Shown: positions 8,336 through 27,567 of the stretch, piece after piece
Numbering within the stretch: the stretch's first letter is position 1
Layout of the letters: each line of letters opens with the position of its first letter
Source: Acidobacteriaceae bacterium
GTDB taxonomy: Bacteria; Acidobacteriota; Terriglobia; Terriglobales; Acidobacteriaceae
Assembly (NCBI GenBank): GCA_003134435.1
Contig: PLBE01000174.1
Coordinates: 27,646-82,241, forward strand
DNA length: 54,596 nt
Reading direction: 5' to 3'
Notes under the pieces: model-generated
What the model was told of the DNA's origin: nothing
The model's database searches: none
What the model saw: only the letters and a program-made list of their open reading frames with translations
Program-made: the position numbers and the translations under genes

Positions 8336-9913
8336 CTAGTAATGACTTTCACTGACTTGCCAAACCGTATCCAGCAAGGTGCCATCGACCCACTTCACGA
8401 CGGCGCAAGGGCGATCGCCCAACTTGGGCTTGGCTGGCTTGCCGCAAATATTTTCGACTTCGGCTTTGATGTCCTGGATGGGCCGAACCGGCAGCTTCGA
8501 TCCCTTGAGGGCGTGGAGCAGATCGGTACGGCGGGGATTGACGGCGATGCCGCGCTCGGTGACGACGACGTCGATCATTTCGCCCGGTCCGGTCAAGGTT
8601 GTGACCTGGTCGACGATCACGGGGATACGATCGCGAAACGAAGGCAGCGCGAGGATGGTGCAACCGGCAAAGAGGCAGTTCTGCCATCCTCCGATGCCGT
8701 GCAGCAGGCGGCCGTCGGAGTGAGTCACGACGTTGGCATTAAAGTTAACATCAACTTCCGTAGCGCCCAGCACCACGGCGTCGACCAGGGAAGCGAAGTT
8801 GCCTTTGCCGTGATAGTTGTAGGAGGTGAAGGGCGAAGTGGCGACGTGCCGGGGATCGTTGGCCATGGACTTGACGCCGTCGAGATCGAAGGTCTGGCCG
8901 TCGAGAATGTAATCGGTGAGCCCTTCCTGCAGCAGTTCGACCAGGAATTTTGTGGAGCCACCGCGAACGAAGCGGGCCTTGACGGCATCCTGCTTCATCA
9001 TCTGTTTGAGATATTCGACGAAAGCCAGGGCGATGCCTCCGGCTCCGGCCTGGAAGGAAAATCCGTTTTTCATGATGCCGGTGGCGCGCAGGAACTGGGC
9101 CACCAGTTCAGCGATGCGCAAACGGTCGGGGGAGCGCGTGATCTGAGTAGTCCCGGAGACGATTTTCGCGGGATCGCCAATCGATTCGACTTCGACCACA
9201 AAATCGACGTTGTTGCCCTGAATCTGACAGGGGACGCAGGGAAAGGGCACGAGGTTGTCGGTAACCACGATGACGCGATCGGCGTAGGTTGAATCGGCCA
9301 GGGCGAAACCAAGCGAACCGCAGGCGGACTTGCCATGCGAACCGTCGGCATTGCCGAAGAAATCCGCGGTGGGGGCGGCGATGACGGCGATGTCGATGTG
9401 AACCTCTCCATCTTGAATCGCCTGGTAGCGGCCGCCATGGGAGCGGAGCACGCCCATGCCACGCATTTTGCCTTGGGTGCAGTAGTCGCCGAGCGGGCCG
9501 TTCATGGAGCCTTCGATGTGGTGAATCACACCTTTTTCCATTAACTCGATGGCATTTTTCTGCGAGGGGAACGAGGCGCTGGGGAACCACATCAGATCTT
9601 TGGCGCCAATTGTGGCCGCGGCTTCGAGCGCCATCAGCGCAACTCTATCGCCGTCGCGCAGATGATGATGGTTGGAGATCACCATGCCGTCGCGCAGTCC
9701 GCATTGGCGCAAGGCCGCCTCCAGATTGGCGACGCGCTTATCGCCAGTATCCGGATAATCTTTATTGGAGCTGATCGGGGGCGCGGCCTTGCGTCCCCGG
9801 GGCTGATATTTTCCGGGGCCGAGAAACGGGATCTGGGGCTTGCCGTTCACCATCGAGGGAACGGTACGGCCGGCGGCGTTATGCGCCAGTTCAACTTTCT
9901 CGATGACACTCAC
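8336..9913 (-). CDS. citF: Citrate lyase alpha subunit (acetyl-ACP:citrate ACP-transferase)
   Basis: CitF exchanges the acetyl group on the acyl carrier protein for citrate, giving citryl-ACP, which CitE cleaves to oxaloacetate and acetyl-ACP. At 525 residues it has the usual CitF length. Recognisable stretches include LRDGMVISNHHHLRDGD, GSMNGPLGDYCTQGKM, VIAAPTADFFGNADG and the C-terminal VVVTERGIAVNPRR, the CoA-transferase-fold signature. It starts with GTG, whose last two bases plus the next A form the TGA stop of the upstream CitD-CitE gene (9910-9913), so the two are translationally coupled. A citramalate-lyase-type substrate is possible. No CitC, CitG or CitX maturation gene is visible nearby. 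Confidence 0.9.
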   Translation of the reverse strand: MSVIEKVELAHNAAGRTVPSMVNGKPQIPFLGPGKYQPRGRKAAPPISSNKDYPDTGDKRVANLEAALRQCGLRDGMVISNHHHLRDGDRVALMALEAAATIGAKDLMWFPSASFPSQKNAIELMEKGVIHHIEGSMNGPLGDYCTQGKMRGMGVLRSHGGRYQAIQDGEVHIDIAVIAAPTADFFGNADGSHGKSACGSLGFALADSTYADRVIVVTDNLVPFPCVPCQIQGNNVDFVVEVESIGDPAKIVSGTTQITRSPDRLRIAELVAQFLRATGIMKNGFSFQAGAGGIALAFVEYLKQMMKQDAVKARFVRGGSTKFLVELLQEGLTDYILDGQTFDLDGVKSMANDPRHVATSPFTSYNYHGKGNFASLVDAVVLGATEVDVNFNANVVTHSDGRLLHGIGGWQNCLFAGCTILALPSFRDRIPVIVDQVTTLTGPGEMIDVVVTERGIAVNPRRTDLLHALKGSKLPVRPIQDIKAEVENICGKPAKPKLGDRPCAVVKWVDGTLLDTVWQVSESHY

Positions 9914-11184
9914 GAAATCACTCCCATCGCCTTCGCCCGCTCCACCAGTTTCAGCGCCCGGTGGACGACGGGCGGATCGATCATTTTGGAACCGAGACTG
10001 ACCACGGCCAAGCCCTTGCTCTGCGCTTCATCAAACGCAGCAACAATCTTCTGCGCTTTTTCAATCTCGATTGCGGCCGGTTGAAAGGCCTGGTGAATCA
10101 CCCGAATCTGTCCGGGATGGATGCATCCCATGCCTTCGAATCCCGTGGCGCGGGAGGCTTCCGCCCAGCGGCGGAGGCCGTCCATGTCAGCGACATCGCT
10201 GAAGACCGAATCGATGGCCTGGATTCCGGCAGCGTGCGCGGCATTCACGATGCGGGATCGCGCATATTGGGACTCGCGGCCTTCGGTCGTCTTCACGACG
10301 CCGAGATCGGCGGTGTAGTCTTCGAGGCCAATGGTAAGCGCCGCCACGTTTTCGGTGGCCGCCGCAATGGCCAAGGCGTTTTCGATGCCGAGTGCCGATT
10401 CGACGATGGGCATAATCCAGATGGGCCGGTTCACTCCGCTGCGCGCTTTGATCTCGCCGATCATGCGATCGGCGGCCTGCACCTGCTCGGGGGTTTCGAC
10501 CTTGGGGATGAGGATGAGGTCCGGGCTCTCGCCGACCACTTCGGCGAGGTCTTCGAGGCCGAGGGGCAACTGGTTAATGCGGACCATGCGCTCGCAGGGT
10601 CCGAAGTCGACGGCCCGCAAGGTGTTGCGCACGAGAATGCGAGCGGCATCTTTCTCTGCGCGATGCACGGAGTCTTCGAGATCGAGAATCACGGCATCGG
10701 GCGCATGCAAGGAGGCGTTAATGTAGTACTTCGGCTCGGAGCCGGGCAGGTAGAGCCGCGAGCGGCGGAGCCGGTCTTTGCCAGAAGACTCGGAACCAGA
10801 GGGCGGGGGACCAGAAGATTCAGGAGGAGCGGGCTCGGGCGGACACGCTTCGGGACGCGGATATGGCGCGGGCAGCGACCGTTTGCCGAGAGCGATGCCG
10901 GCGCGTTTGGCGGCAGCCTCGATACGCGCGGAAATCACAAAAGGTAGAGCGCCTTCATCATGGATGGCGACGCGGGCGTGTTGTACGCCAAGTTCAGCCA
11001 GGACTGCGCGCGTCTGTTCGAGGATGGCCGAGCCGTAATAGGCGGCGACGCGGGACTCCAGCGAAATCTCGACGCCGCCGGCGTCACGCGCTTCGAAGGC
11101 GACGTGCACGTCGGAGCGAACATCCTTGCCCCAATGGCCCGCCTCGGCGGAACGCGGGAGCGTAGTCTCGGTAGCACTGCTCAT
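9910..11184 (-). CDS. citE: Fused citrate lyase gamma (ACP, CitD) and beta (CitE) subunit
   Basis: Two subunits that are normally separate are joined in one 424-residue chain. Residues 1-100 match CitD, the acyl carrier protein: GKDVRSDVHV places S24 at the serine that carries the phosphoribosyl-dephospho-CoA group, and YYGSAILEQTRAVLAELGV and IHDEGALPFVISARI follow. A proline/serine-rich linker covers roughly residues 105-140. The rest is CitE, of the HpcH/HpaI TIM-barrel superfamily: RLYLPGSEPKY, DAVILDLEDSV, IPKVETPEQV, PIVESALGIENA and TIGLEDYTADLG, with the metal-ligand acidic residues present. The ATG at 11184 has a GAG six bases upstream; an alternative GTG at 11199 lacks a site. It overlaps citF by four bases. 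Confidence 0.88.
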   Translation of the reverse strand: MSSATETTLPRSAEAGHWGKDVRSDVHVAFEARDAGGVEISLESRVAAYYGSAILEQTRAVLAELGVQHARVAIHDEGALPFVISARIEAAAKRAGIALGKRSLPAPYPRPEACPPEPAPPESSGPPPSGSESSGKDRLRRSRLYLPGSEPKYYINASLHAPDAVILDLEDSVHRAEKDAARILVRNTLRAVDFGPCERMVRINQLPLGLEDLAEVVGESPDLILIPKVETPEQVQAADRMIGEIKARSGVNRPIWIMPIVESALGIENALAIAAATENVAALTIGLEDYTADLGVVKTTEGRESQYARSRIVNAAHAAGIQAIDSVFSDVADMDGLRRWAEASRATGFEGMGCIHPGQIRVIHQAFQPAAIEIEKAQKIVAAFDEAQSKGLAVVSLGSKMIDPPVVHRALKLVERAKAMGVIS

Positions 11185-11253
11185 AAAAATCTCAACCACA
11201 AAAAGTCACGAAGATTCAAGAAGCGAGAGCTTGTTGCTTCGCGGCGGATGCAG

Positions 11254-12441
11254 CTATTTCAGTTTCTCCAAAATTGCGTCCGTCATCTGCACCGTGGACG
11301 CGGCGCCTTGACTGATGGCTTTCGGACCACCGGTAAAGCGCATCATATCGTAGGTGCGTACTTTGCCTGCGCGCACGACCTCTGCAATCGCGGTGCGGAT
11401 GCGATTCGCCCTGGCGTCTTCGCCGACGTGATCGAGCATCATGGCGGCGGACAGAATCATGGCAATCGGATTGACGATGGGCGGATCCAGTTCGGCATAC
11501 TTGGGCGCGGACCCGTGCGTTGGCTCGAAGACGGCGACCTCGTCGCCAATGTTGCCGGAGGCGGCGAATCCCAAGCCGCCGACGAGTCCGGCGAAAGCAT
11601 CGGAAAGAATGTCGCCAAAGAGATTGGAAGCAACGATCACGTTGTACTCCTCGGGGTTTTTATTCAACCACATCAGTTGGGCATCGATGTTGGTCGACCA
11701 GAGCGCAATTCCGGGATAATCCTTAGCCACTTCCTTGGCGACCTCTTCCATCATGCCGGAAGTCTCGCGCACGACGTTGGGTTTTTCGCAGATGGTGACG
11801 CCTTTGAAGCAGCGTTTCTTGGCGTATTCGAAGGCGGCGGTGACGATGCGCTGGGCGGCGTGGCGGGTGATGATGCGGCAACTCACGGCAATCTCAGGGC
11901 CGGGAACGCTGGCAAAAGCCTTGAATCGCGGATGGCTGTTCAAGGCGGCGCGGACGATCTCGGGAGGGTTGGTCCACTCGACGCCGGCGTACATGCCTTC
12001 GGTGCCCTGGCGGAACACGGTGGTGTCGATTTTGGGTTCGTCGAATCCTCCGGATGTGTTCTTGCGAATGTAATTCAGCGGATTGCCGATAAATCCAACA
12101 CAAGGCCGCAAACAGATATCGAGGTTAAACTTCTGGCGCATCGTCACGATGGGCGAGTAATACACATAGCCCTTGCCTTGTAACTCGGGCTTAAGCTCGG
12201 CTTGAGCCGCTTTATTGGGCTTCGAAGTAATGGCGCCGAACAGACCCAGCTTGTGCCTGGCTAGCAACTCAATGGTGCGGTCGGGTAAAGCGTTGCCCTG
12301 CGCGCACCAGCAATCCCATCCGATATCGGCGTGAATGTATTCGGCATCGAAGCCGACGGCGTTGAGGACGCGCAGCGCTTCAGGAAGAACCTGATTGCCG
12401 ATGCCGTCTCCGGGCATGGTAACGATTGTGTATTTTGCCAT
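11254..12441 (-). CDS. Isocitrate/isopropylmalate dehydrogenase family protein
   Basis: A decarboxylating beta-hydroxyacid dehydrogenase of 395 residues. Family marks are the N-terminal MPGDGIGNQVLPEAL, FGAITSKPN, the substrate-binding FRQGTEGMYAGVEW, and the metal/NAD region ASNLFGDILSDAFAGLVGG, then VFEPTHGSAPKYA. The last motif favours NAD over NADP by family precedent. An AAGGAG site lies six bases before the ATG. It sits between an aconitase-type hydratase and citrate lyase, so isocitrate is the first guess. The fungal-type homoaconitase upstream also allows homoisocitrate or a methylated analogue. Which acid it takes cannot be read from sequence alone. Expression is probably coupled to the cluster. 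Confidence 0.88.
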   Translation of the reverse strand: MAKYTIVTMPGDGIGNQVLPEALRVLNAVGFDAEYIHADIGWDCWCAQGNALPDRTIELLARHKLGLFGAITSKPNKAAQAELKPELQGKGYVYYSPIVTMRQKFNLDICLRPCVGFIGNPLNYIRKNTSGGFDEPKIDTTVFRQGTEGMYAGVEWTNPPEIVRAALNSHPRFKAFASVPGPEIAVSCRIITRHAAQRIVTAAFEYAKKRCFKGVTICEKPNVVRETSGMMEEVAKEVAKDYPGIALWSTNIDAQLMWLNKNPEEYNVIVASNLFGDILSDAFAGLVGGLGFAASGNIGDEVAVFEPTHGSAPKYAELDPPIVNPIAMILSAAMMLDHVGEDARANRIRTAIAEVVRAGKVRTYDMMRFTGGPKAISQGAASTVQMTDAILEKLK

Positions 12442-12497
12442 AAGTGCTCCTTAAGTAACGCAGTAGATCTACCTCCGGGAAGGCGCGCCGCCGCGAT

Positions 12498-14501
12498 CTA
12501 GGTCACTGCCAGGCGCCTGCTTACGAGATTCTCGACTCCGCCAGCAATCACCAACGACTGCGGCACACTGCCCAGCGCCGGGAACGCAAATTTCTCTTCG
12601 CGCCACGAGATCGTGCTGGAAGTGAAATCGATATCGATTTTATCCCCCGGAATGATGGTCTTCTGTTTCGCCGCGATCTGGTTCGCCAACTGTTCGCGCA
12701 CCCGCGCGACAAATTCCGGCACTTCGATACACAAAAACCCGTTGTTAAAAGCGTTCCGCAGATAAGTCTGCGAGAAACTGGCGGCAATCACGAGCGGAAT
12801 TCCTTTTGCCTTGAGGCAGGTGACGGCCTGTTCGCGGCTCGATCCGGTTCCGAAATTGAACTGGCTGACGATGACGTCGCCGGCACTCGTGCGCGCCGCA
12901 AACTGAGGATCGTAATTTTCCATGACCACCTTCGCCATCATTTCGGGAGTCATGTCGTCGCGATAGGTGCAGTCCTTGCCATAAATCGCATCGGTGTTGA
13001 CGTTATCCTGCGGCATGAAGACGAGGCGTCCCTCCACGCGCTGGGGGAAGCCCGCCAGGATTTCAACTTTCTCGGCTCCGCCGGACGGGGCTGCTAATTC
13101 CGTGTACCGGCGCTGTGGAGCGCGATCTCCAACGTCATTGGAGTCGCGCTGAGGTCCGCGAATATAGCCGGCGACGGCGGAGGCTGCGACTACCTCGGGA
13201 CTGGCGAGGTAGCACTGGGCATCGCGCGACCCCATGCGGCCCTTGAAGTTTCGATTGGTCGCCGAGATCCCGACCTCGCCCGCCTCGAGCAATCCCACGC
13301 CCAGACCGATGCACGGACCGCAACCCGACGGCAGTGGCTGGGCTCCAGCGTCAATGAGAGTCTGCCAGGCGCCGCGTTTCTCCGCTTCTTCCTGCACCCA
13401 CTTGCTCGCCGCGCTCAAATAGAACTTCACGCCGGGGGCGATCTTCCGATCCTTGAGCACTGCCGCCGCGGCGGCCAGATCTTCCAATCGCGAATTGACA
13501 CACGAGATGAGATACGCTTTCTGGATCTCTACTTTCCTCTGCTCGATTTCAGCCAGCGACTGCATCGCCTGCACCGTATCGGGCCCCGATATATGGGGCG
13601 TGACTTGCGCGAGATCAAGCGTGATGCGCGCGGCATAAACGGCATCGGTATCCGGCCGAGGGGGATTTTTCTCCCAGGCGGCGATGTCGTTTTCCGTAAA
13701 GCGTTCAATGCCCAGCGCCTGGAGGCGCTGGTGGACGCCGCGCAAATATTGGACCGTAACCGCGTCGACGGGAAACCAGCCGACCAGCGGGCCCCACTCG
13801 GTGGTCATATTCGAAATCGAAAGCCGGGCATCCATGGAGAGCGATGCGACTCCCGGACCGGCAAATTCGACCGCGGCGTTCAGGCATTCGTCGTGGTTAT
13901 AAAGACCGCACAACGTGATGATGACATCCTTGCCGGTGACGCCGTGGGGTAGTTTGCCTTCGAGGACGACCTGAATGGAGCGCGGGATCTGCCACCAGAA
14001 TTCGCCCGTGGCCCAGACGGCGGCGGCATCGGTGCGAACGATCGGAGTCCCGATGGCACCGAGCGCGCCGTACATATTGGAATGCGAATCGGAAGCGACC
14101 ACGAAAGACCCAGGGACTACATAGCCGCGCTCGACCATAATCTGGTGCCCGATGCCCGATCCGGCGGGATAGAAATCGACTTGCTGATCCTTGGCAAAGG
14201 CTTCAATGGCGCGATATTTCTTGAGGTTCGCTTCCTCCCGATTCTGGATATCGTGGTCGAGCGCGAAGGTGAGTTGTTGCGGATTCTTGACTTTCCTGGC
14301 GCCGATGCCCTTGAACTTGTTCATCACCGCGGAGGTGTTGTCATGCGTCATGCAGCGATGAGGACGAATCGATAGAAAATCTCCGGTACGCAGCGGGCGC
14401 GAGGGCCCTTCGGTCATGTGGAGCTGCGCGATTTTTTCAACGATGGTCTGACCGGCAATTGTTTGGCCGGCAGCGGTCTGGCCGAGACTCGTTTGGTCCA
14501 T
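12498..14501 (-). CDS. Homoaconitase / aconitase-like hydratase (LeuC-LeuD fusion)
   Basis: A 667-residue iron-sulfur hydro-lyase carrying the large (LeuC-like) and small swivelling (LeuD-like) domains in one chain. Cluster cysteines are visible in YLISCVNSRLED and in the CxxC of SGCGPCIGLG. The opening PHRCMTHDNTSAV, KVKNPQQLTFALDHDIQN and YPAGSGIGHQIM resemble Lys4-type homoaconitases. The C-terminal FNFGTGSSREQAVTCL is the small-domain substrate loop. The N-terminus has a repeated GQT unit (LGQTAAGQTIAGQTI) of unknown meaning. The ATG at 14501 has GGAG six bases upstream, and the gene begins 17 bases after dinB ends. It could act on citrate, homocitrate or methylcitrate; neighbours favour a tricarboxylate. 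Confidence 0.88.
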   Translation of the reverse strand: MDQTSLGQTAAGQTIAGQTIVEKIAQLHMTEGPSRPLRTGDFLSIRPHRCMTHDNTSAVMNKFKGIGARKVKNPQQLTFALDHDIQNREEANLKKYRAIEAFAKDQQVDFYPAGSGIGHQIMVERGYVVPGSFVVASDSHSNMYGALGAIGTPIVRTDAAAVWATGEFWWQIPRSIQVVLEGKLPHGVTGKDVIITLCGLYNHDECLNAAVEFAGPGVASLSMDARLSISNMTTEWGPLVGWFPVDAVTVQYLRGVHQRLQALGIERFTENDIAAWEKNPPRPDTDAVYAARITLDLAQVTPHISGPDTVQAMQSLAEIEQRKVEIQKAYLISCVNSRLEDLAAAAAVLKDRKIAPGVKFYLSAASKWVQEEAEKRGAWQTLIDAGAQPLPSGCGPCIGLGVGLLEAGEVGISATNRNFKGRMGSRDAQCYLASPEVVAASAVAGYIRGPQRDSNDVGDRAPQRRYTELAAPSGGAEKVEILAGFPQRVEGRLVFMPQDNVNTDAIYGKDCTYRDDMTPEMMAKVVMENYDPQFAARTSAGDVIVSQFNFGTGSSREQAVTCLKAKGIPLVIAASFSQTYLRNAFNNGFLCIEVPEFVARVREQLANQIAAKQKTIIPGDKIDIDFTSSTISWREEKFAFPALGSVPQSLVIAGGVENLVSRRLAVT

Positions 14502-14518
14502 AAGGAACTCCCGATTAC

Positions 14519-14986
14519 TCAAGCTTTCTGTTTCAGTTGAAAGACCAGATACATCATCTGTCCGACGTGATGGTGCAGATGGGTGGCGCAAGAAAGGACC
14601 ATGCCAAATCTATCTTTGGCATCGGCGCCCACGGCGGTATATTCCTTGGACCAGTCCTCGGCCAACTGGCGATTGATGGTCCGCACTACCATCTCAATCG
14701 CCTGATCGAAATTGTTCAGTACCTCGGTTTTGGAGGGGCGGGTCTGGTCCGAGAACTCCTGTGGACGATCGCGCACGTAACCGGTAGCAGCAATCTGGGC
14801 GCCGATATAGTAGTTGAGGTTGCCGGTGAGATGCAGCACGAGATGGCCAAAGCTGTTGCCGAAGGAGTAGGGCTTGGCCCAGAACTGGTCGTCGGTAAGG
14901 GTCTCCGCCAAGTCGCGCACCAGGCCAGCGAGTTTCTCGTAGCGTGCCGCCAGATCGGATGCAATCGTCTGTTGTAAATCTGTCAT
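14519..14986 (-). CDS. DinB-family (DUF1572-like) protein
   Basis: A 155-residue four-helix-bundle protein of the DinB/YfiT superfamily. Candidate metal-ligand histidines occur in FGHLVLHLTGNLNYYIG (about residues 47-62) and near the C-terminus in CATHLHHHVGQM. Family members are often thiol-dependent transferases or hydrolases (bacillithiol or mycothiol linked), but many have no known role. GGAG precedes the ATG by six bases. It is the gene immediately upstream of the homoaconitase-like gene and very likely shares its transcript. No damage-repair genes lie nearby, so the name should not be taken to mean DNA repair. Confidence 0.8.
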   Translation of the reverse strand: MTDLQQTIASDLAARYEKLAGLVRDLAETLTDDQFWAKPYSFGNSFGHLVLHLTGNLNYYIGAQIAATGYVRDRPQEFSDQTRPSKTEVLNNFDQAIEMVVRTINRQLAEDWSKEYTAVGADAKDRFGMVLSCATHLHHHVGQMMYLVFQLKQKA

Positions 14987-15043
14987 GAGTTACTCCAACT
15001 TACCTACCACTTCACCTGAATAGGCTTTGGCCTTCGCCGGCTG

Positions 15044-15063
15044 GGCGGACGAGGGCGTCCGCC
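15044..15063. repeat. Perfect 8-bp palindromic hairpin
   Basis: GGCGGACG, loop AGGG, CGTCCGCC. It lies between the MmgE/PrpD stop and dinB. No T-run follows. It shares the core G(C)GGAC...GTCC(G)C with 32200-32219 and 42315-42328, suggesting a REP-like dispersed family. Confidence 0.6.
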
Positions 15064-15092
15064 GCTACGCGGTTGCTGGCTGCTGTTGCTGC

Positions 15093-16544
15093 CTAACGAC
15101 GCTTCGTGCCCGACTTTTTGACTGCTTTCGCTTTCGGTCTCCGTTTTACGTCCGCTTGCATCAGCGCCATGAGCTTAGAGACCGAGGCGCATTTTTCGAG
15201 ATTCCAGATTGTTTCAATCAGCTTGTTCTGAGCTTTCGCGGAAAGCACGCTGTCGGCGAGGGCGCGAAATTTCTCTTCAATTTCGGCATCGCTCAGGGGA
15301 TTTCGCGGATCGCCTTTGGGATAGTCGAGCTGCTTCGAGAATGTCTGACCATCGCTGGTAGTGATGTTGACGATGACGCGCTGCAGCGCGGGAAAAACTT
15401 TTTCAATCTCGGGATCGGCCACGACTTCAACTTTTTTGAGCTGGGCGCGAATCGCCGGATCCATGATTTTGTTCATCTCGAATTGTGCCGGGGTGACCTG
15501 GCGATCCACCAGGGCCGCCGCAACGACGTAGGGGAGGGAATGGTCTGCTGTCTCCTTGGTATGGGGATCGTATTTGCTGGGATCGGAGAGAATGTCGGCG
15601 GCACGAGCCAGCGACCGGATTTGAATTTTCTCCACCTGATCGGGGTGGAGGTCGTTGCTCTTGACGAGGTCAAGGACGGCGGAGATGGGAGCGTGGGTCA
15701 GCGCCTCGGTCGGGAAGAATTTCATGCCGCACTGGGTGATGCGCCAGGATTCGCCGAGGCCGTCGGTGAGCAGGTTCTGTTTCCACTCTGGACCGAAGCA
15801 GTGCACCAATCCTTCTTTGCCGTCGATGACATGCTCGGGACCGCTGTAGCCTTTTTCGGCGAGCAGGGCGGCCAGCACGCCGCTTTGAGTGGCCATAGGA
15901 TCGACGGTGTTCTTCATCATGGTGAGCTTGCCGGCGGTGACGGCGCCCATGGTGCAATGCCGGGAGGCGGAGATGCCGATGGCATGTTGAATTTGTTCCC
16001 ACCTCAAATGCAGCGCGCGCCCCGCCACAATCGGCGAGACAAACGCCGTCAGCGTCGCATGATGCCAGCCGCGCTCGCGGATGCCCGGGAAAGCCGCCTC
16101 GCACAGGCGCATTTCGAACTCGTGGCCGAGGACAAATCCAACGATCAATTCCCTGCCATCGCTTTTAGATCGCTCGCAACCGGCCATGGCGGCGGGAAAA
16201 ATGTCGGAGGGATGGGAAGGATCCTGTTTCCAGTAAATGTCGTTGTAATCCATGCAGCGGATCATGAGGGCGTTGGCCAGCGAGGCGGAAACCGCGTCCA
16301 TCTTCTGGCCGGAGCCGATCACGGTTGCGGGGCCGCGTCCGGCGATTTCCTTGAGCACTTCGAGAGCGATGATCACGTCGTGCTGGCGGTATCCGCCGAG
16401 GGCGCAGCCGACGGAATCGAGCAGGAAGCGCTTGGCCTGGTAAACGGCGTCCGCGGAGAGCTGCTCGTATTGCAGCCCGGCTGCCCAGCGGGAAATGGTT
16501 GCGGTGATGGTTTCTTTGGTGCTGCCTTGCATACTCGTGGACAC
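15093..16544 (-). CDS. MmgE/PrpD family dehydratase or decarboxylase
   Basis: A 483-residue member of the family that holds 2-methylcitrate dehydratase (PrpD), cis-aconitate decarboxylase and iminodisuccinate epimerase. Visible marks are FLLDSVGCALGGY near residue 41, NALMIRCMDYNDIYW near residue 95, PSDIFPAAMA, ERGWHHATLTAFVSP and QCGMKFFPTEALTHAPI. The GTG start at 16544 is supported by GAGGAG seven bases upstream. The C-terminus is very basic (KRRPKAKAVKKSGTKRR). There is no prpB or prpC nearby, so a full methylcitrate cycle is not shown. With citrate lyase and a homoaconitase-like gene in the same run, it probably handles an aconitate-type tricarboxylate. Confidence 0.88.
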   Translation of the reverse strand: MSTSMQGSTKETITATISRWAAGLQYEQLSADAVYQAKRFLLDSVGCALGGYRQHDVIIALEVLKEIAGRGPATVIGSGQKMDAVSASLANALMIRCMDYNDIYWKQDPSHPSDIFPAAMAGCERSKSDGRELIVGFVLGHEFEMRLCEAAFPGIRERGWHHATLTAFVSPIVAGRALHLRWEQIQHAIGISASRHCTMGAVTAGKLTMMKNTVDPMATQSGVLAALLAEKGYSGPEHVIDGKEGLVHCFGPEWKQNLLTDGLGESWRITQCGMKFFPTEALTHAPISAVLDLVKSNDLHPDQVEKIQIRSLARAADILSDPSKYDPHTKETADHSLPYVVAAALVDRQVTPAQFEMNKIMDPAIRAQLKKVEVVADPEIEKVFPALQRVIVNITTSDGQTFSKQLDYPKGDPRNPLSDAEIEEKFRALADSVLSAKAQNKLIETIWNLEKCASVSKLMALMQADVKRRPKAKAVKKSGTKRR

Positions 16545-16569
16545 TTTTTCTCCTCAACCAAGCAGGTGA

Positions 16570-16652
16570 TTTGTCATCCTGAGCGAAGCGAAGGACCTGC
16601 TTCTACTCAGTTCGCCAGAAAAAAGGTCCATCGCTTCGCTCAGGATGACAAA
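16570..16652. repeat. Inverted pair of GTCATCCTGAGCGAAGCGA repeat
   Basis: The left arm (16570-16591) is an exact 22-base reverse complement of the right arm (16631-16652). Allowing one mismatch extends the pairing to 28 bases (16570-16597 with 16625-16652). It lies between the HD-domain gene and the MmgE/PrpD gene. One more copy of the unit, slightly changed, lies at 43786-43811, so the unit is dispersed. Confidence 0.8.
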
Positions 16653-16672
16653 CAATTCAAGACTTCTGTTCT

Positions 16673-17230
16673 TCACTTTACTTTCACGTTCTTCGGATTC
16701 TTAAACGGCAAGAACGCCATGAAATCGGCGTGATGCACGATGAAGGCTTCGGTGGTGCGCTTGACCAGATCGCCTTCGGCGGCGTGGGCGGCGATGATGT
16801 GGCAGACGGCGTCGGGCACGCCACACTCCATGGCCAGCGCAACTCCGGTAAACGGATGTCGCAACGCTTCTCCGCGCTCGCTTTGCCTGCTTTTCCCGTC
16901 GGGACCAATCTCATACTCCAGCAACTTGCCCACGTCGGCCAGGATGGCGCCGGCGATCACGACGTCCAGGTCGATGGGGAGGGCGCGGCCCATGAAGGCG
17001 GTCATGGCTCTGGCACTATCGCGCGCGATATGGACGACGCAGCGCTTGTGCTCCATGAATGTGATGGGACAATTCGGAACGAGCAGCGTAAAAGGAATCC
17101 GATTCAGGTCGTCGGGCAGCAGCGGACTGCGCTCCAGCGCCTTGATCCACGCCTGAGTGACTTGCTCGCGAAGCTTGGCATTACCGATCCATTGAATTTC
17201 CGGCCACAGTCGTTCGACGGCCTCCCGCAT
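16673..17230 (-). CDS. HD-domain protein with altered metal motif
   Basis: A 185-residue protein with the layout of an HD phosphohydrolase domain: first-His region EHKRCVVHIARD (H61 or H67), GAILADVGKLLEYE where HD is expected, RHPFTGVALAME, CHIIAAHAAEGD, and FIVHHADFM at the C-terminus. The central His of the HD pair is alanine here (A98-D99), so canonical two-metal hydrolysis may be lost or changed. The ATG at 17230 has GGGAGG eight bases upstream. It is the first gene of the run leading into MmgE/PrpD and citrate lyase, so it may serve that pathway as a binding or regulatory protein. That link is inference from position only. Confidence 0.75.
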   Translation of the reverse strand: MREAVERLWPEIQWIGNAKLREQVTQAWIKALERSPLLPDDLNRIPFTLLVPNCPITFMEHKRCVVHIARDSARAMTAFMGRALPIDLDVVIAGAILADVGKLLEYEIGPDGKSRQSERGEALRHPFTGVALAMECGVPDAVCHIIAAHAAEGDLVKRTTEAFIVHHADFMAFLPFKNPKNVKVK

Positions 17231-17309: not shown

Positions 17310-20300
17310 TCACTTTTTCGAAGCGGGGGTGGCGGCGGAAGAAGAATCCATGTCGATGGGCAGCAGTTCAATGCTGCAACCGGAAGCGGAGCAGCTCAGA
17401 CGACCTCGGCGGACAATTTTGACCGACGAGACATCGGGAAATCTGACGGGGAAGTCGTGCTCTCGAAGTTTGTCGGCGGCGGTTCGAAGAGTTTCGTCGC
17501 CGTCGACAAACTCGGCGCGTTCAGGACGGGGCGAGCTGTCAAAGACCAGATTGAATCGCGCCGACCCCGTCTTGCTGATGAGCGCCGCGAGCTTCACGGT
17601 GCGGGCCTCAGTCAAGTCGGCGGGGGCCTCGACGATTTCCTTTTCGGCGGCGGCGGAATCGCCGGCGAGTTTCGCTAAACGGTCGCGTGAATCGGCGACC
17701 TCGCTGCCGCCGGCCACCACGGCGAGGGCATACATGTGGCGCGCCTTTTCCTGCTGGCCTTGCTTTTCGAAGACCTGCCCGAGGCGGTTGGCGACGCTGC
17801 CCGACTGGCTCAACAGCCAGGCCGACTGGAGAAACTGCATGGCCGCAAGATTCTCGCCGTGTTGATATTTAGCCCATCCCATTCGCGCCCAAGCCAGTGC
17901 GACCAGCCGCATCGAGGAAAACGCCGATGGTCCGAGGCGGTCGAGTTCGCCGGAATCGAACTGTCCGCCAATGTCGTAGAGGACCTGTTGGGCATCGTTC
18001 TCGGTCGAGGAAGGATCGATGTTGTTTCTTAGAGCGGCGGCATAGATATCCTGGCTGGAATCGGCTCCAGCGCTGCCGGTAAGTTCTTGCATCAATTCCT
18101 GGGATTTCGAGGTTTCTCCCAGGCGGGCATAGACCTGCGCCAGCGCCATCTTGGTTTCCGGATCATCGGGAGGAAGTGCGACGGCGGCTTCGAGTTGCGT
18201 GCGGGCATCCGCATCGCGTCGCAACTGGGCGAGGAGCACGCCGAGATTCTTGAGTGTTTCTTTGTCGTAGGGCGTCATCTCCAGTTGCTTGCGATAGGCG
18301 GCGATGGCATCGTCGGTCTGTCCGGCTTGCTGGAGTTCGATCGCCAGCTCGCCATTCGCGTGCTTGTGACTGGGATCCCGCAGCAGTTGCTGGTAGAAAG
18401 CGGCGATGGCCTCCGTATGATTATTGGCGCCGGCGTACGCGAGCCCGAGGTCATACCAGCCGTCTCTCAGGCTGGCATTCGGTCCGGCATCCGCTGAGAC
18501 GGCGCGCTTCAGCAGGTCGATGGCGGTGCGATAGTCTTTGCTCTGCAAGGCCTTCACGCCCGCTTTCTGCAGCTCTTCGGGCGTTCCTTCGATCTTGCTC
18601 GCCAGTCCGGCGGCGGGGCCTGAGGGGGTGAGGATGGTGCAAGACAACAACTGGTCCTGATCGCTTTGGGTGGCATTGCGAAACGATTCGTAGTCGGCGC
18701 GGCGGGCGGCGGGTAGCTCATTGACCTTCACGTTCAGCTGGCGCACCCCTTCCAAAACTCCTTTGCTCTGGGAATAGTTCGAAGAATAGTCGCCATAGTC
18801 GCGCGACATTTTGACGGCGGTCGGCGTATGCACGGTGTAGTTCGCGGGGAACTGCAGACGAACCCGGTAGTCCATTTCACCGGCGGGGCCGATGTCGAGC
18901 GGTTCGGTGCTTTTCTCGGAGGCACGAATCGCAGGCACACCGAGGGGCGGGATGGCGCGAAAATTGACGCTGGTCGAGGGCACGATGAAATAGCGGTCCT
19001 GGCGAAGGTGGTACGTCAGATGAAAGGGCTTGCTGGTGTCTTCGACGGGATCGAGTTGGATGTCATCGACGTCGCCGGGCAAACCCCAGCCTGAGGAGAG
19101 GACTTTCACGAAGTCTTTCCACTGGGCCTGGGAGAAGCGTCGAAAACTGGCGCGCATGGGCCAATCGCGATCGCCCTGGGCGGTCACTTCAAGGGTGGCA
19201 TCGAGGGCGCCGAACTCGGTGAATTTTCCGTCGAGGTTGAAGTGCATGAAGGTCGGGATGGGCGAATCGGCGGGGGTGCGCTGCAGCCCACCCTCGGGAC
19301 CTTCCGACGCGACGACCGCTTGCTTGTTGCGCAACTGGTAAAGAATCAAGCCAAAGGGCGTGACTTCAGGAGTGGTATCGAGAAAAGTCAGCTCGGATCC
19401 CGGGCCCAGCCGAGCGGCGGTGATGACGTGATCGAACTGGGCTGGGGAGGGAACGTCGGCATCCAGTTTGCGGGCGCTGCCGATGAGGACGGGATAGCTT
19501 TGAATTCCCTCCGCGCGCAACATCGCGGAAAGCAAAGTGTGTTTGTCTTTGCAGTCGCCGTAACCATTCCGCAGAACGTCGGATGCGGCATGCGGCTGAT
19601 AACGTCCGATGCCGAGGGAGATGCTCACGTAGCGGACATTGCGGGCGACGAAATCATAGAGGCGGCGCGCTTTGTCGGTGGGGGTGGCCGATCCGCGCGT
19701 GAGTTCGACGGCTTTCATGCGGACGCTGTCGTCCCCGGTCATGCGCTCGCCTTGCAGCCGGGCGTACCACTGCGCGACCTGCTTCCAGTCGGTGAAGGTG
19801 GTCAACTGAACATCGGGGCCGGTGGCGTCGTCCTCCTCGTCTTTATTCTTTTCTTTGTCGCGTTCGGGCTGGATGTCCTTGACCACCCAAATGTAAAGGC
19901 GGCGATCGGCCTTGTCCTGGATCTCGGGCTGGCGAGTTGGGGTCTTGAGTTTCACTTCGCGCGACTTGGGGAGGTCGATCTCCAGGCGATCTTCGCCGAC
20001 CGCCATGCCTTTGGGAAATGTGTATTCGTACCAAAAATGTCCGGCGGCAAGGGGCGTGAGCACGCGGGTGACGGTGCGGTACTCCAGGGTGTCGCCGGGC
20101 TGGAGCGCGGCCACGGAAATGTGGCGCTGGCGGTAATCGCTGTACATGGGAGCTTCTTTGAGGACATCGGGAGCGAAATCCTGGGCGGTGGTTTGCGGCG
20201 TCACGACCACTTGGCCGTCGGGTTTGCGCACCTGTACGTACTCGATCTCGAGCTTTTCCGTGGCCGAGGAGTAGCCGAAAACGAGTTGACCGAATTCCTC

Positions 20301-20561
20301 GACGCCCGCCTGGCTCTGAATTCGAACCACGGCCTCGGTCTCGCTGACTTCGGTTCCATCGTTCTCAAAGCGAACGCGATTCAAGATGCGATCGAAGACG
20401 GCGGCTTCTTTGGAATTGGAATTGGCGTCGGCGTTCTTTTGCGGGGAGGAGGAGGCGGGAGCCTGCGCCCATGCGCTCGGGGCCAGGAAAAAGAGGATCA
20501 AGCAGGCAACGCAACCCTGGAGGGTGCAGTTCAACACAGCATTGGACCAGCGCTTGGACAT
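17310..20561 (-). CDS. Exported DUF3857-transglutaminase protein with TPR repeats
   Basis: A 1083-residue secreted protein. A signal peptide (residues 1-33, cleavage near AWAQA) is followed by a DUF3857 beta-rich domain. A transglutaminase-like core then shows the catalytic triad pattern: Cys at about 335 in GYGDCKDKHTLL, His at about 376 in FDHVITAARLG, Asp at about 394 in TFLDTTPEV. A second beta domain follows, then TPR repeats from about residue 640 to 920 (LKRAVSADA, YDLGLAYAGANNHTEAIAAF, ELAIELQQAGQTDDAIAAY). The C-terminal 120 residues are unassigned and contain CSASGCSIEL. Such proteins are common in Acidobacteriota and Bacteroidota, with no settled function. It is divergent from the Ig-like gene at 20610. 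Confidence 0.87.
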   Translation of the reverse strand: MSKRWSNAVLNCTLQGCVACLILFFLAPSAWAQAPASSSPQKNADANSNSKEAAVFDRILNRVRFENDGTEVSETEAVVRIQSQAGVEEFGQLVFGYSSATEKLEIEYVQVRKPDGQVVVTPQTTAQDFAPDVLKEAPMYSDYRQRHISVAALQPGDTLEYRTVTRVLTPLAAGHFWYEYTFPKGMAVGEDRLEIDLPKSREVKLKTPTRQPEIQDKADRRLYIWVVKDIQPERDKEKNKDEEDDATGPDVQLTTFTDWKQVAQWYARLQGERMTGDDSVRMKAVELTRGSATPTDKARRLYDFVARNVRYVSISLGIGRYQPHAASDVLRNGYGDCKDKHTLLSAMLRAEGIQSYPVLIGSARKLDADVPSPAQFDHVITAARLGPGSELTFLDTTPEVTPFGLILYQLRNKQAVVASEGPEGGLQRTPADSPIPTFMHFNLDGKFTEFGALDATLEVTAQGDRDWPMRASFRRFSQAQWKDFVKVLSSGWGLPGDVDDIQLDPVEDTSKPFHLTYHLRQDRYFIVPSTSVNFRAIPPLGVPAIRASEKSTEPLDIGPAGEMDYRVRLQFPANYTVHTPTAVKMSRDYGDYSSNYSQSKGVLEGVRQLNVKVNELPAARRADYESFRNATQSDQDQLLSCTILTPSGPAAGLASKIEGTPEELQKAGVKALQSKDYRTAIDLLKRAVSADAGPNASLRDGWYDLGLAYAGANNHTEAIAAFYQQLLRDPSHKHANGELAIELQQAGQTDDAIAAYRKQLEMTPYDKETLKNLGVLLAQLRRDADARTQLEAAVALPPDDPETKMALAQVYARLGETSKSQELMQELTGSAGADSSQDIYAAALRNNIDPSSTENDAQQVLYDIGGQFDSGELDRLGPSAFSSMRLVALAWARMGWAKYQHGENLAAMQFLQSAWLLSQSGSVANRLGQVFEKQGQQEKARHMYALAVVAGGSEVADSRDRLAKLAGDSAAAEKEIVEAPADLTEARTVKLAALISKTGSARFNLVFDSSPRPERAEFVDGDETLRTAADKLREHDFPVRFPDVSSVKIVRRGRLSCSASGCSIELLPIDMDSSSAATPASKK

Positions 20562-21899: not shown

Positions 21900-21956
21900 T
21901 TCCTGCGATTCATGGGTATTGGGCGAGCGATCCGCCTGATGCGCACGGAGCAAGCG

Positions 21957-23243
21957 ATGTTCAAGTTTCACCATTTCAGCCGGGGCGCAGGCTTGTTGCC
22001 AGGACTATTGCTGGCCGCGACGGTGGCGGCCTGGGCGCAGCAGACGCCGCTTACGTGGGAGCAGGTTCGGCTGCGCTTTGAGCAAAACAACCCTACGCTG
22101 CTGGCAGACCAGTTGAGTATTGAGGAGTCGAAGGCGGAAGAGATTACGGCTTTTCTGCGTCCGAATCCGACCCTCGGGCTGACGGTTGATGGCACTCAGA
22201 TCGCGCCCAATAAGGGCGTCTGGCAGCCGTTTGCCGGAACTTTTGAGTCGCCTAGCATCAGCTATCTGCACGAGCGGCGGCACAAACGAGAGTTACGGCT
22301 GGAAAGCGCGAAGAAGGGAACGCTCATTGCCGAGTTGAGCCATGCCGACCTGGAGAGAACGCTGCTGTTCAGTTTACGGAGCGCGTTTGTGTCACTGCTG
22401 CAAGCGAAATCAGTGCTGCGGTTGGCGAAAGACAATCTTATCTATTACGACCACGTACTGGATATCAGCCGAGACCGGTTTCATGCCGGGGACATCGCGC
22501 AAATCGACCTCGACCGGTTGGAATTACAGCGGACGCAATATGAATCCGATCTACAGACTGCGGAAGTGAATCTGCGCACGGCAAAGATTCAGTTGCTTAC
22601 GCTGCTGAACGACCGGACGCCAATCGAACAATTCGACGTATCGGGGTTATTCGATTTCGATGAAGGACTGAGGGTGCGGGAAGAATTCCGTCAGATTGCG
22701 ATGGATACACGGCCGGACTTGAAGGAAGCGGTGGAGGCGGTAGACAAGGCGCAAACCGATCACAAACTTGCCATGGCGAACGGCTCGACCGACCCCACGC
22801 TGAGCGCCTGGTACACGCATAATTCCTCCACCAACAACCCGTTTGCCGTGAATACAGTGGGTGTGAGCGTAAGCATTCCTCTGCGGCTTTTTGACCGCAA
22901 CCAGGGCGAGAAGCTGCGAACCCAGTTGGATATAAGGCGCAATGAGAAGCTGCGCGAAGCGGCGGAAGCGCAGGTGCTGAGCGACGTCGATTCCAGTTAT
23001 GCCCTGATCGATAGCACGCTGAAACTGCTGCGGCCGTACAAGGCGAAGTACCTGGAGCAATCGGTGCGGGTGCGCGACACGATTTTCTTTTCGTATCAGC
23101 ACGGCGGGGCGTCGCTGCTGGATTTCTTAAATGCGGAGAGTGAGTACCGGATGGTGCAACTGAGCTACGTGAATCTGGTTGGTTCTTATTTGACCGCGGC
23201 AGCCCAATTAAATCAGGCGGTGGGCCGCGAGGTAATCCCATGA
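21957..23243 (+). CDS. czcC: TolC/CzcC-family outer membrane efflux protein
   Basis: Outer-membrane channel of a tripartite heavy-metal RND pump. The ATG at 21957 has GGAG six bases upstream and leads into a signal peptide (GLLPGLLLAATVAAWAQQT). Two outer-membrane efflux repeats follow. The family pattern of long heptad helices is visible (ISRDRFHAGDIAQIDLDRLE; SYQHGGASLLDFLNAESEYR) and the length is typical at 428 residues. The upstream in-frame ATG at 21912 would put extra residues before the signal peptide and is less likely. The stop overlaps the ATG of the adaptor gene by four bases (ATGA at 23240-23243), which indicates translational coupling. Confidence 0.9.
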   Translation: MFKFHHFSRGAGLLPGLLLAATVAAWAQQTPLTWEQVRLRFEQNNPTLLADQLSIEESKAEEITAFLRPNPTLGLTVDGTQIAPNKGVWQPFAGTFESPSISYLHERRHKRELRLESAKKGTLIAELSHADLERTLLFSLRSAFVSLLQAKSVLRLAKDNLIYYDHVLDISRDRFHAGDIAQIDLDRLELQRTQYESDLQTAEVNLRTAKIQLLTLLNDRTPIEQFDVSGLFDFDEGLRVREEFRQIAMDTRPDLKEAVEAVDKAQTDHKLAMANGSTDPTLSAWYTHNSSTNNPFAVNTVGVSVSIPLRLFDRNQGEKLRTQLDIRRNEKLREAAEAQVLSDVDSSYALIDSTLKLLRPYKAKYLEQSVRVRDTIFFSYQHGGASLLDFLNAESEYRMVQLSYVNLVGSYLTAAAQLNQAVGREVIP

Positions 23244-24391
23244 CATGGTTAGCGAAAAACTTATTCGGTCGAAGAACTGCTAAGGCGAGCTTGGTGCTGG
23301 GAATGGCGATGCTCGTCGGGTGCGGCGAAAACAAGGCCGACCCGAAGGCGGAAGCACCGCCCGCGGCAACGGTGGAGCCCGACCTGGATGCCAACAACTT
23401 CAAGGTGGATCATCCCGAGCAATTTCCGCTGGTGACGGCGATTGAGCATAAGGCGGCGCCGGCGCTGAATGTCACGGGCGTGGTGCAGCCGGATATCGCG
23501 CGGGCGGTGCCGGTGATCTCGCTGGCGGCGGGGCGGGTAGTGGAAATCAAGGCGCGTCTGGGCGACACGGTGAAGAAAGGGCAGTTGTTGCTGAGAGTGC
23601 AGAGCAACGATGTTTCCGGAGCTTACCAGACGTACCGCAAGGCGGAGAACGACGAGCGACTGGCGCGCATCCAGTTTGACCGGGCGCAGACGCTTTACGA
23701 CAAGGGCGCTATCGCGAAGAGCGCGCTGGAACAGGCCGAAGACGGGGAACAGGATGCCAAAGCGGATCTGGATGCGGCGACCGAGCAATTGCGGCTTCTG
23801 GGTATCGACAAGGACCATCCTTCGGGCATCGTCGACATCAAGGCGCCGATTTCCGGGGTGATTACGGACCAGCAAGTGACCAACGCGTCGGGGGTGCAGG
23901 GACTGGGGTCACCCAATCCGTTCACGATTTCCGATCTTTCGTATGTCTGGATCATGTGCGACGTTTACGAAAACGATCTGGACGCGGTGCATCCGGGCGA
24001 GTACGCCGACATTCGATTGACTGCCTATCCCAACAAAGTTTTCCGGGGCCGGATCGACAACATTCTGCCGGTTCTCGATGCCACGCTGCGCACGGCCAAG
24101 GTTCGGCTGGAAGTCGCGAATCCCGGAATGATGCGGGTGGGCATGTTCGTCTCCGCGACTTTCTACGGTAAACAACCGGAGATACGGGCGGCGGTGCCGG
24201 CAGCGGCAATCCTTCACCTGCATGATCGGGAGTGGGTGTACACGCCGGTGAGCGCGGGTCATTTCAAGCGGCTGGAAGTGGTCACGGGAAATATGCTTCC
24301 GGGCAACCTGCAGGAAGTTGTTTCAGGAATCAGGCCGGGAGATCAGGTCGTTTCGAATGCGCTGGTGCTGCAAAACACGTTGGAACAGTAA
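23240..24391 (+). CDS. czcB: RND efflux periplasmic adaptor, CzcB-like lipoprotein
   Basis: Membrane-fusion protein linking the inner-membrane pump to the outer-membrane channel. It has a lipoprotein-type N-terminus (GMAMLVGCGEN), a lipoyl/biotinyl-like half motif (AAGRVVEIKARLGDTVKKGQ), a coiled-coil hairpin rich in Ala, Glu and Asp (about residues 130-185), the second lipoyl half (IKAPISGVITDQQVTNASGV), and then beta-barrel and membrane-proximal domains ending in IRPGDQVVSNALVLQNTLEQ. At 383 residues it is normal for the family. GAGG lies seven bases before the ATG, within the end of the TolC gene. No His-rich N-terminal extension is present, so the metal cannot be inferred. Confidence 0.9.
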   Translation: MTWLAKNLFGRRTAKASLVLGMAMLVGCGENKADPKAEAPPAATVEPDLDANNFKVDHPEQFPLVTAIEHKAAPALNVTGVVQPDIARAVPVISLAAGRVVEIKARLGDTVKKGQLLLRVQSNDVSGAYQTYRKAENDERLARIQFDRAQTLYDKGAIAKSALEQAEDGEQDAKADLDAATEQLRLLGIDKDHPSGIVDIKAPISGVITDQQVTNASGVQGLGSPNPFTISDLSYVWIMCDVYENDLDAVHPGEYADIRLTAYPNKVFRGRIDNILPVLDATLRTAKVRLEVANPGMMRVGMFVSATFYGKQPEIRAAVPAAAILHLHDREWVYTPVSAGHFKRLEVVTGNMLPGNLQEVVSGIRPGDQVVSNALVLQNTLEQ

Positions 24392-24417
24392 ATGGGAACA
24401 ATCAAGGGGAGCAAGCA

Positions 24418-27400: not shown

Positions 27401-27567
27401 GGTCGGATTCGCAGCGGCCCTTCGCGATTGTGATCGTGGGCGGCCTGATCGCGGCCCTCATTATGAGCGTATTCCTGCTGCCGACGTTATATGTATGGGT
27501 GGCGGGCGAACGGGACGTCTTGCCGGCGGCTGAAGAAGGCTTCGAGGTAGGCGAGCACGTGGATTGA
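24418..27567 (+). CDS. czcA: Heavy-metal efflux RND pump, CzcA-like
   Basis: Inner-membrane proton-driven exporter of the HME branch of RND proteins, 1049 residues. The GTG at 24418 has AGGGGAG six bases upstream; any earlier in-frame start would fall inside czcB. The signature of transmembrane helix 4, LDFGMVVDGAVVMLENII, carries the two Asp and the Glu that form the proton relay in CzcA. The N-terminal RRVVDFALDNRLLVLGF and PIEAYPDVADNYVEI are also HME-type. Twelve membrane segments and two large periplasmic loops fit the length. The substrate could be a divalent (Co/Zn/Cd) or monovalent (Cu/Ag) cation; I cannot decide from sequence. It forms an operon with the two genes before it. Confidence 0.93.
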   Translation: MIRRVVDFALDNRLLVLGFALLLFASGIVAFRDLPIEAYPDVADNYVEIITQWPGISAEQIEQQVTIPLEISMNGIPHVVHLRSFSLFGLSDIKLIFDDESDNDWNRERVLERLSQVTLPPNVVPQMGTDWSPVGQIYFFTLHSTNPAYDAMELKSLEDWVVEKSFKSVPDIVDVSSFGGPTREYQVRLDPDKLVAYGLSLAQVEQQLTNNNVNAGGSFIQEGLQQINVRSVGLVDRSQDIERTVIVTKNGTPLRVKDIAVVSQGAKIRLGQFAKAIHREDGKIIDNDDVVSGIVLLRKNAAADTALQGIHKEVQELNDHILPPGVKIVPFIDRSTLVHFTSHTVLHNLAEGMILVSIILFLFLGNVRGALIVAATIPFSLLFASICLDLRHIPANLLSLGALDFGMVVDGAVVMLENIIRHLGNKSGVKTAREQISDASHEVQRPVFFAIAIIITAYLPIFTLQRVEGRLFHPMAWTVAFALLGALLFSIVIAPVLASFAFQNGATEWHNPIMQFLVERYRVAVRWAIRHRAVTIGVCLLLAAVGNYLAFSGTIGSEFLPHLDEGALWVRGTLAPSTGPDEGIRVANQARIVLCSFPEVPQCTSQVGRPDDGTDTTGFFNTEFFVDLKQKEDWRPVFHENKDELIAAMGRELDKIPGVVWGFSQPIEDNMEEAVSGVKGALATKIYGDDLKVLEEKSDEIVSIMRKINGIEDLGVFRVLGQPNLNVTVDREAAARYQINVADVQDAIQTAVGGNALTQVLKGEARYDLTLRYLPQYRDTQEAIERIRLLSPSGGRVSLAQLCKIKVTDGASEVYREGNRRYVAIKYSVRGRDLGSTVEEAIKKVNEQVKLPTGYSLDWEGEYESQKRANARLLIVLPITILIIFVILYTMFKSFKWSALIMANVAIAPIGGLLALWFTGTNFSVSSGVGFLALFGVSVQTGVIMLEYINQLRARRFTIEDAAVEGAVLRLRPIMMTMLVATLGLLPAALSHAIGSDSQRPFAIVIVGGLIAALIMSVFLLPTLYVWVAGERDVLPAAEEGFEVGEHVD

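Follow-up and report, generated by a model that had tools for sequence, protein, structure and literature searches.

Which reaction sequence is encoded by a row of tricarboxylate-type genes at positions 8336–17230 of a 54,596-nucleotide stretch of contig PLBE01000174.1 (the window) from an Acidobacteriaceae bacterium? The row combines an MmgE/PrpD family protein (MmgE), a fused homoaconitase-like hydratase (ACO), a beta-decarboxylating dehydrogenase resembling homoisocitrate dehydrogenase (IDH), a CitD-like domain fused to a CitE-like lyase (CitDE) and a CitF-like transferase with an HD-domain protein and a DinB-like protein. Six of these families recur together in related genomes and in distant phyla, and in all likelihood they work as a single functional module whose lyase is altered. 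We read the module as linking a 2-oxo acid and CO2, on one side, to a shorter 2-oxo acid and an acetyl unit on the other. Our preferred reading, with a probability of roughly 0.45, is that the operon encodes a complete homo-series route ending in a CoA-type lyase.

Gene layout of the operon

Seven open reading frames (ORFs), all on the minus strand, make up the row. They encode the HD-domain protein (185 residues; 17230–16673), MmgE (16544–15093; Pfam MmgE_PrpD_N and MmgE_PrpD_C), the DinB-like protein (14986–14519; DinB_2, 46.7 bits), ACO (14501–12498; aconitase superfamily), IDH (12441–11254; Pfam Iso_dh), CitDE (11184–9910; acyl carrier protein (ACP) domain at 28–100 and HpcH_HpaI at 146–362) and the CitF-like CoA/ACP transferase (9913–8336). 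The longest ACO frame begins at 14591; its most likely start is the ATG at 14501, which leaves a 17-base gap after the DinB stop. CitDE begins with the ATG at 11184, a GTG at 11199 being a possible alternative, and overlaps CitF by 4 bases; the remaining gaps in the operon span 56 to 128 bases. Re-reading the ORF coordinates agrees with an earlier note on this DNA, which had described seven co-directional genes with a 17-base gap and a 4-base overlap, and the families it assigned hold in Pfam and NCBIfam profile searches. Its 'citrate lyase' is correct by family, but the gene beside CitF proves to be a CitD-like/CitE-like fusion.

Six gene families recur together

Conservation was assessed in 61 related genomes, the window's own genome (G000) included, with an IDH at 74% identity or more as the marker of the module. 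This IDH is present in 23 of them, comprising 19 of the 24 genomes of the genus (own included) and 4 of 13 other family members, and is found in none of the 14 from the rest of the order or the 10 from the rest of the class, three of which have a sister protein at 53–55% identity. The partners in the 22 other carriers are aconitase (21), CitDE (19), CitF (16), MmgE (16), HD (15) and DinB (13). Every absence of HD, MmgE, aconitase, CitDE or CitF among these carriers falls beyond a contig end; DinB is missing from four same-family genomes in which the region is intact. In one carrier (G032), HD and MmgE are encoded on the other strand. The core set is six, namely HD, MmgE, ACO, IDH, CitDE and CitF; DinB, which had been counted as a module member, is a local extra.

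A survey of named genomes with nine IDHs extended this picture. We took the best 80 loci, so that the counts are lower bounds; 79 of the 80 record titles denote metagenome-assembled genomes (MAGs). The titles name Acidobacteria, Gemmatimonadota, Bacteroidetes, Ignavibacteria (Melioribacter roseus, Ignavibacterium), Planctomycetota, Chloroflexi, Calditrichota, Latescibacterota, Krumholzibacteriota, Myxococcota and others; the module carrier labelled Melioribacter roseus (L108) is a MAG rather than the type strain. All six families (IDH plus five partners by tblastn) are found in 27 of the best 80 loci. Both flanks are full in 33, and there the five partners are complete in 17 and wholly missing in 3. 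The aconitase is of the fused homoaconitase type (at least 45% identity) in 46 of the best 80 loci and of another kind in 17, with none in the available DNA of the other 17. Clustering the ORFs of these and six further loci recovered IDH in 69 loci, ACO in 62, HD in 40, CitDE and CitF in 39 each and MmgE in 35; the next-largest clusters reach 12 loci, and those looked at come from related Ignavibacteria-type loci. Gene orders differ between phyla though the six families co-occur. The arrangement is beyond chance, because the absences among relatives fall past contig ends and the same families co-occur in other orders in unrelated phyla. A coherent tricarboxylate module, as the earlier note had proposed, is thus conserved in six families well beyond the genome in which it was noticed.

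A predicted CoA-type lyase

CitF matches the Pfam CitF family at 439.6 bits (cut-off 27) and scores 485.2 bits with TIGR01584, slightly below the equivalog cut-off of 501.45; CitDE does not reach the CitE equivalog TIGR01588 (263.2 versus 443.4). CitX was matched in none of the 61 relatives, own genome included (this set only), and CitG in a single module-free genome (G060) but in no module carrier (0 of 23); the E. coli positive control was detected in these searches. In 20 genomes of other groups that carry the module IDH, CitG was likewise unmatched; CitDE and CitF are visible in the locus in 13 of these. CitC gave no match in the own genome and weak partial matches in 12 of the 61 relatives (20.7–27.4 bits, covering at most positions 9–107 of 182), among them two of the 23 module genomes (G017 and G027; 20.8 and 23.6 bits). 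These weak matches probably represent CoaD-like nucleotidyltransferases.

Alignment with E. coli and Enterococcus CitD places an Arg at the position of E. coli Ser14, which we take to be the prosthetic-group attachment site, in all 39 readable CitDE sequences. The motif at this Arg reads RSD in 38 of 41 CitDE proteins, RAD in one (L131) and is unreadable in two; a shift of one residue would bring the Ser under Ser14. Because CitX and CitG were unmatched and an Arg aligns with Ser14, the sequences suggest that the lyase uses free CoA thioesters rather than a prosthetic group made by CitX and CitG. Judged by these features, the CitDE/CitF lyase departs from ordinary citrate lyase. We reject textbook citrate fermentation on the same two observations, and the earlier contention that this is not the standard citrate-fermentation operon stands after a genome-wide search in which CitX, CitG and CitC all went unmatched. 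In two related bins (L092 and L094), a gene resembling those for ADP-forming acyl-CoA synthetase (ACD-like) follows CitF.

Two hydro-lyases accompany the dehydrogenase

ACO exceeds the cut-off of the homoaconitase equivalog TIGR00139 (751.6 versus 529.9 bits), its best-scoring model, as do the other three of the four fused ACOs scanned (860.1, 852.1 and 746.3 bits, each from another locus). MmgE has IDS-epimerase and IRG1/cis-aconitate decarboxylases as its nearest solved relatives. Two different hydro-lyases accompany IDH in three arrangements. The first pairs fused ACO with MmgE. The second consists of a 600-residue ACO with HacA and HacB, and no MmgE is seen in five such loci with sufficient DNA (L101, L119, L126, L129 and L141); a short contig (L106) resembles it. 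The third, in Anaerolineales (L121 and L128), combines HacA and HacB with MmgE.

A second hydro-lyase fits homocitrate, because the yeast and Aspergillus homoaconitases, according to PMC3556520, interconvert only homoaconitate and homoisocitrate and require a second enzyme. MmgE is probably that hydro-lyase, since it is not seen in the five loci that have a 600-residue ACO and HacAB; the role of cis-aconitate decarboxylase, which some of its solved relatives perform, is less fitting. Nor does MmgE indicate a methylcitrate cycle, which the earlier note had already set aside. PrpD models give it 92.9, 81.6 and 59.9 bits against cut-offs of 950, 575 and 458, and the oxidation step requires a secondary alcohol. 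The own genome also encodes a 684-residue aconitase-family protein whose LeuD-like domain is N-terminal, ahead of the large domain (L074:5427–7481).

The dehydrogenase forms its own clade

An SPIV motif is present in 68 of 69 IDH homologues, sister proteins included, and is common to the module IDH and the S. pombe homoisocitrate dehydrogenase 3ty3 (aligned via the N-terminal stretch of L132). In the solved isocitrate dehydrogenases that were compared, the equivalent motif contains Asn; alignments of the Thermus enzyme do not span this region. HGSAPKY occurs in all 69 IDHs and TYDxxR in 25. Lys and Tyr at the first of these places mark NADP enzymes in E. coli IDH, and this NADP-type signature favours a predicted use of NADP.

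In a tree of 45 rows, one L052 protein being represented by two of them, a 100/100 branch unites 23 module IDHs with the sister proteins of L051–L053 (~50–55% identity to the module IDH), apart from the isocitrate-dehydrogenase-type and isopropylmalate-dehydrogenase-type proteins of the own genome. That genome also has a separate AcnA, two citrate-synthase-family proteins (assigned at the level of PF00285) and an isocitrate-dehydrogenase-type protein slightly below cut-offs (444.8 versus 510; 430.0 versus 432.4 bits). With these proteins encoded elsewhere and its IDH in a clade of its own, the module is not a set of simple TCA-cycle (tricarboxylic acid cycle) duplicates, the weakness that the earlier note had foreseen. 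Every family is known, as would be expected if ordinary TCA or fermentation duplicates had merely come to lie together by chance, but the joint occurrence of six families in 27 of the best 80 loci, across many phyla and in varied orders, the separate IDH clade and the unmatched CitX and CitG make this extremely improbable.

One sister IDH lies beside HMG-CoA-lyase-like, CaiB-type CoA-transferase and HacA/HacB genes (L051:9071–14656); the best match of the CaiB-type gene is succinate-glutarate CoA-transferase, below cut-off. By analogy, this set would be a comparable module that follows the same logic with other parts. Its gene content could also speak for a catabolic pathway acting on another R-citrate or R-malate, such as 2-methylcitrate, citramalate, an alkylcitrate or a plant tricarboxylate, and the MmgE/PrpD and CitE families do include methylcitrate, cis-aconitate/itaconate and malyl-CoA-type enzymes. 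We consider such a substrate improbable for the window's operon: neither the PrpD nor the CitE equivalog cut-off is reached, ACO scores highest with the homoaconitase model, and 2-methylisocitrate, being a tertiary alcohol, is not oxidisable by an Iso_dh enzyme.

A proposed homo-series route and its citrate alternative

In the route that we propose, IDH would reversibly carboxylate a 2-oxo acid with NADPH, converting 2-oxoadipate and CO2 to homoisocitrate. ACO would convert homoisocitrate to homoaconitate, and MmgE, as a separate hydro-lyase and putative (homo)citrate dehydratase, would convert homoaconitate to homocitrate. CitF would then form homocitryl-CoA, with acetyl-CoA as the CoA donor, and CitDE would split it into acetyl-CoA and 2-oxoglutarate. 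In sum, 2-oxoadipate would be cut to acetate and 2-oxoglutarate, or the reverse, a substrate and a direction that we infer.

This C7 series (2-oxoadipate, homoisocitrate and homocitrate) is slightly favoured over isocitrate and citrate because ACO passes the homoaconitase cut-off, IDH shares SPIV with the S. pombe homoisocitrate dehydrogenase and two hydro-lyases are present. The separate AcnA, isocitrate-dehydrogenase-type and citrate-synthase-family proteins of the own genome lend it further support. Of the 20 other-group genomes with a module IDH, 14 have an additional aconitase frame of 740 residues or more. We also count for the C7 series the short 2-oxoadipate dioxygenase/decarboxylase (HGLS) genes situated 2–4 kb away from the module in two loci labelled Bacteroidetes (L150:11900–12706 and L146:19489–20343). 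L150 has, in addition, a YdiJ-like gene below its cut-off. The KorA family is over cut-off in 57 of the 61 relatives and is therefore uninformative for co-occurrence.

The same enzymes could instead work in the C6 series, a possibility that we regard as serious if somewhat less than even. Here, 2-oxoglutarate, CO2 and NADPH would yield isocitrate, then cis-aconitate, citrate and citryl-CoA, and finally acetyl-CoA and oxaloacetate. The module would be an alternative, probably reversible citrate branch (a reductive TCA half), with CoA-type CitF/CitDE, aided by an ADP-forming acyl-CoA synthetase in loci that have one, standing in for ATP-citrate lyase; with the ACD-like gene after CitF in L092 and L094, the sum would be the ATP-citrate-lyase reaction. 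The L129 region fits this series, combining ACD-like, CoA-transferase-like and KorAB-like (2-oxoacid:ferredoxin oxidoreductase-like) genes with IDH, HD and two aconitases. Behind these KorAB-like, IDH, HD and aconitase genes lies a divergent ATP-citrate-lyase-like pair, an ATP-grasp protein resembling the succinyl-CoA synthetase (SCS) beta subunit and a 743-residue CoA-binding/ligase/citrate-synthase fusion (L206:101–3624 with L205:7734–20000). Searches of the 4.1-Mb genome of this locus (G074) turned up no further protein of the aconitase, Iso_dh, monomeric IDH or citrate-synthase families. Genes resembling those for citryl-CoA lyase and SCS occur in L119, KorAB-like genes adjoin IDH and ACO in L148, and G076 has a citrate synthase but, LeuC/LeuB-like proteins aside, an aconitase and IDH from the module only. 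In 5 of the 20 other-group genomes, no Iso_dh protein besides the module IDH is present, but 3 of those 5 have a monomeric IDH.

The C6 series nevertheless leaves unexplained the two hydro-lyases, the homoaconitase-model match and the SPIV motif, and most carriers, the window's genome included, encode further aconitases as well as proteins of the isocitrate-dehydrogenase or citrate-synthase type. The lyase proteins of L119 and L129 fall under the citryl-CoA-lyase and succinyl-CoA-ligase cut-offs, as does the KorAB-like pair of L148 under those for KorA/KorB. No ATP-citrate lyase is among the proteins of the window's operon, and the ATP-citrate-lyase-like pair was seen only in L129/L206; for this enzyme, the rest of the own genome was searched for the citrate-synthase domain only.

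Several observations weigh against the homo-series route in turn. IDH does not reach the AksF cut-offs (270.8 versus 540; 263.1 versus 500), and L-lysine 6-aminotransferase is over cut-off in none of the 61 genomes, so that one source of 2-oxoadipate is lacking. Four loci (L123, L146, L149 and L150) show one aconitase-family gene and no MmgE within the available DNA. In L119 and L129, IDH and HD are accompanied by a set resembling ATP-citrate lyase or citryl-CoA lyase, and in L129 and L148 by KorAB-like genes, combinations that resemble a reductive TCA branch on citrate. Searches of G072, G074 and G076 turned up no isocitrate-dehydrogenase candidate besides the module IDH and no aconitase frame reaching 740 residues, and G076 retains citrate synthase. 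Nearly all carriers being MAGs, gene absences from single genomes are weak.

The HD protein and neighbouring genes

The HD protein exceeds the HDIG model TIGR00277 (32.1 bits versus 27.6) and has no Pfam match at E 0.001. Its motif in the window is degenerate, LADVGK, with the His lost. Among 66 relatives, the motif reads LADVGK in 40, LIDVGK in 14, LHDVGK in 9, LIDIGK in 2 and LADVGL in 1; Ala or Ile thus replaces the His of the HD pair in 57. The nine loci that keep it (L093, L099, L101, L106, L109, L119, L120, L129 and L141) include all five HD-bearing loci with a 600-residue aconitase and HacAB (L101, L106, L119, L129 and L141). A structure predicted from an alignment of 22 sequences has a predicted local distance difference test (pLDDT) score of 91.4 (the single-sequence model, at 40.7, was unusable), and the closest fold to this model is the YhaM HD domain (9h3f_A; Z 16.2, root-mean-square deviation 3.1, 165 aligned). 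HD adjoins IDH and aconitase also where CitDE and CitF are absent from the available DNA (L146, L149 and L150). We tentatively take the protein to be a regulator or an accessory hydrolase.

Upstream of HD, the window encodes a DUF3857/transglutaminase/TPR protein (17310–20561, minus strand), a gene that precedes HD in 10 of 11 same-genus HD-bearing loci and in none of 4 same-family loci. An ordinary resistance–nodulation–division (RND) efflux system, with consecutive genes for an outer membrane factor, an HlyD-type and an AcrB-type protein, occupies 21912–27567 on the plus strand. A scan of the window gave promoter-like sites (3 versus 3.4 expected) and terminator-like sites (7 versus 10.1 expected) at chance counts, which are therefore uninformative on transcription units; Rfam and tRNA scans of the window returned no matches.

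Meaning and relation to known systems

All the families are known; what is new to us is how they combine, how widely they are spread and that the lyase appears to have lost its cofactor machinery. Among the papers listed in a search of titles and abstract openings in open-licence PMC, none dealt with homocitrate cleavage or the six-gene set. A six-gene unit kept across many phyla suggests that pathway maps lack a central carbon reaction, and automatic annotation would probably label its parts homoaconitase, dehydrogenase and citrate lyase, thus hiding the pathway. More speculatively, and with considerable doubt, the module may be a widespread unnamed carbon route in which reductive carboxylation and CoA-type cleavage feed CO2 into central metabolism, in C7 or C6 form. 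In the C7 form, glutaryl-CoA or 2-oxoadipate would be carboxylated to homocitrate and split to acetyl-CoA and 2-oxoglutarate. The C6 form would have CitF/CitDE and an ADP-forming acyl-CoA synthetase in place of ATP-citrate lyase, giving a hidden reductive citrate branch in many phyla.

Among known systems, citrate lyase CitDEF (with CitC, CitX and CitG) shares CitF, CitE and a CitD-like domain with the module, as well as CoA/ACP transfer followed by C–C cleavage. In the module, by contrast, the CitD-like domain is fused to CitE and has Arg at the Ser14 position, CitG and CitX are unmatched, and the lyase genes adjoin hydro-lyases and a dehydrogenase. The methylcitrate cycle (PrpBCD, AcnB) likewise uses an MmgE/PrpD protein and an aconitase-family enzyme in a two-step isomerisation, whereas the operon has a dehydrogenase and CitF/CitDE, lacks PrpB/PrpC and scores far under the PrpD cut-offs. 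The HD protein is predicted to share its fold with YhaM-type HD nucleases but not their intact metal motif. The reductive TCA branch, with ATP-citrate lyase or citryl-CoA synthetase/lyase, has IDH-type, aconitase-type and cleavage enzymes in common with the module, and KorAB-like and ATP-citrate-lyase-like genes occur in some module relatives; the module differs in its citrate-lyase-like enzyme in place of ATP-citrate lyase, its homoaconitase-like hydratase and its HD protein. The upper part of the alpha-aminoadipate pathway (fungal/Thermus) shares homoaconitase-like and homoisocitrate-dehydrogenase-like enzymes and two isomerisation enzymes with the operon, which is set apart from it by the lack of a homocitrate synthase and by an MmgE/PrpD second hydro-lyase, CitF/CitDE and an NADP-type signature.

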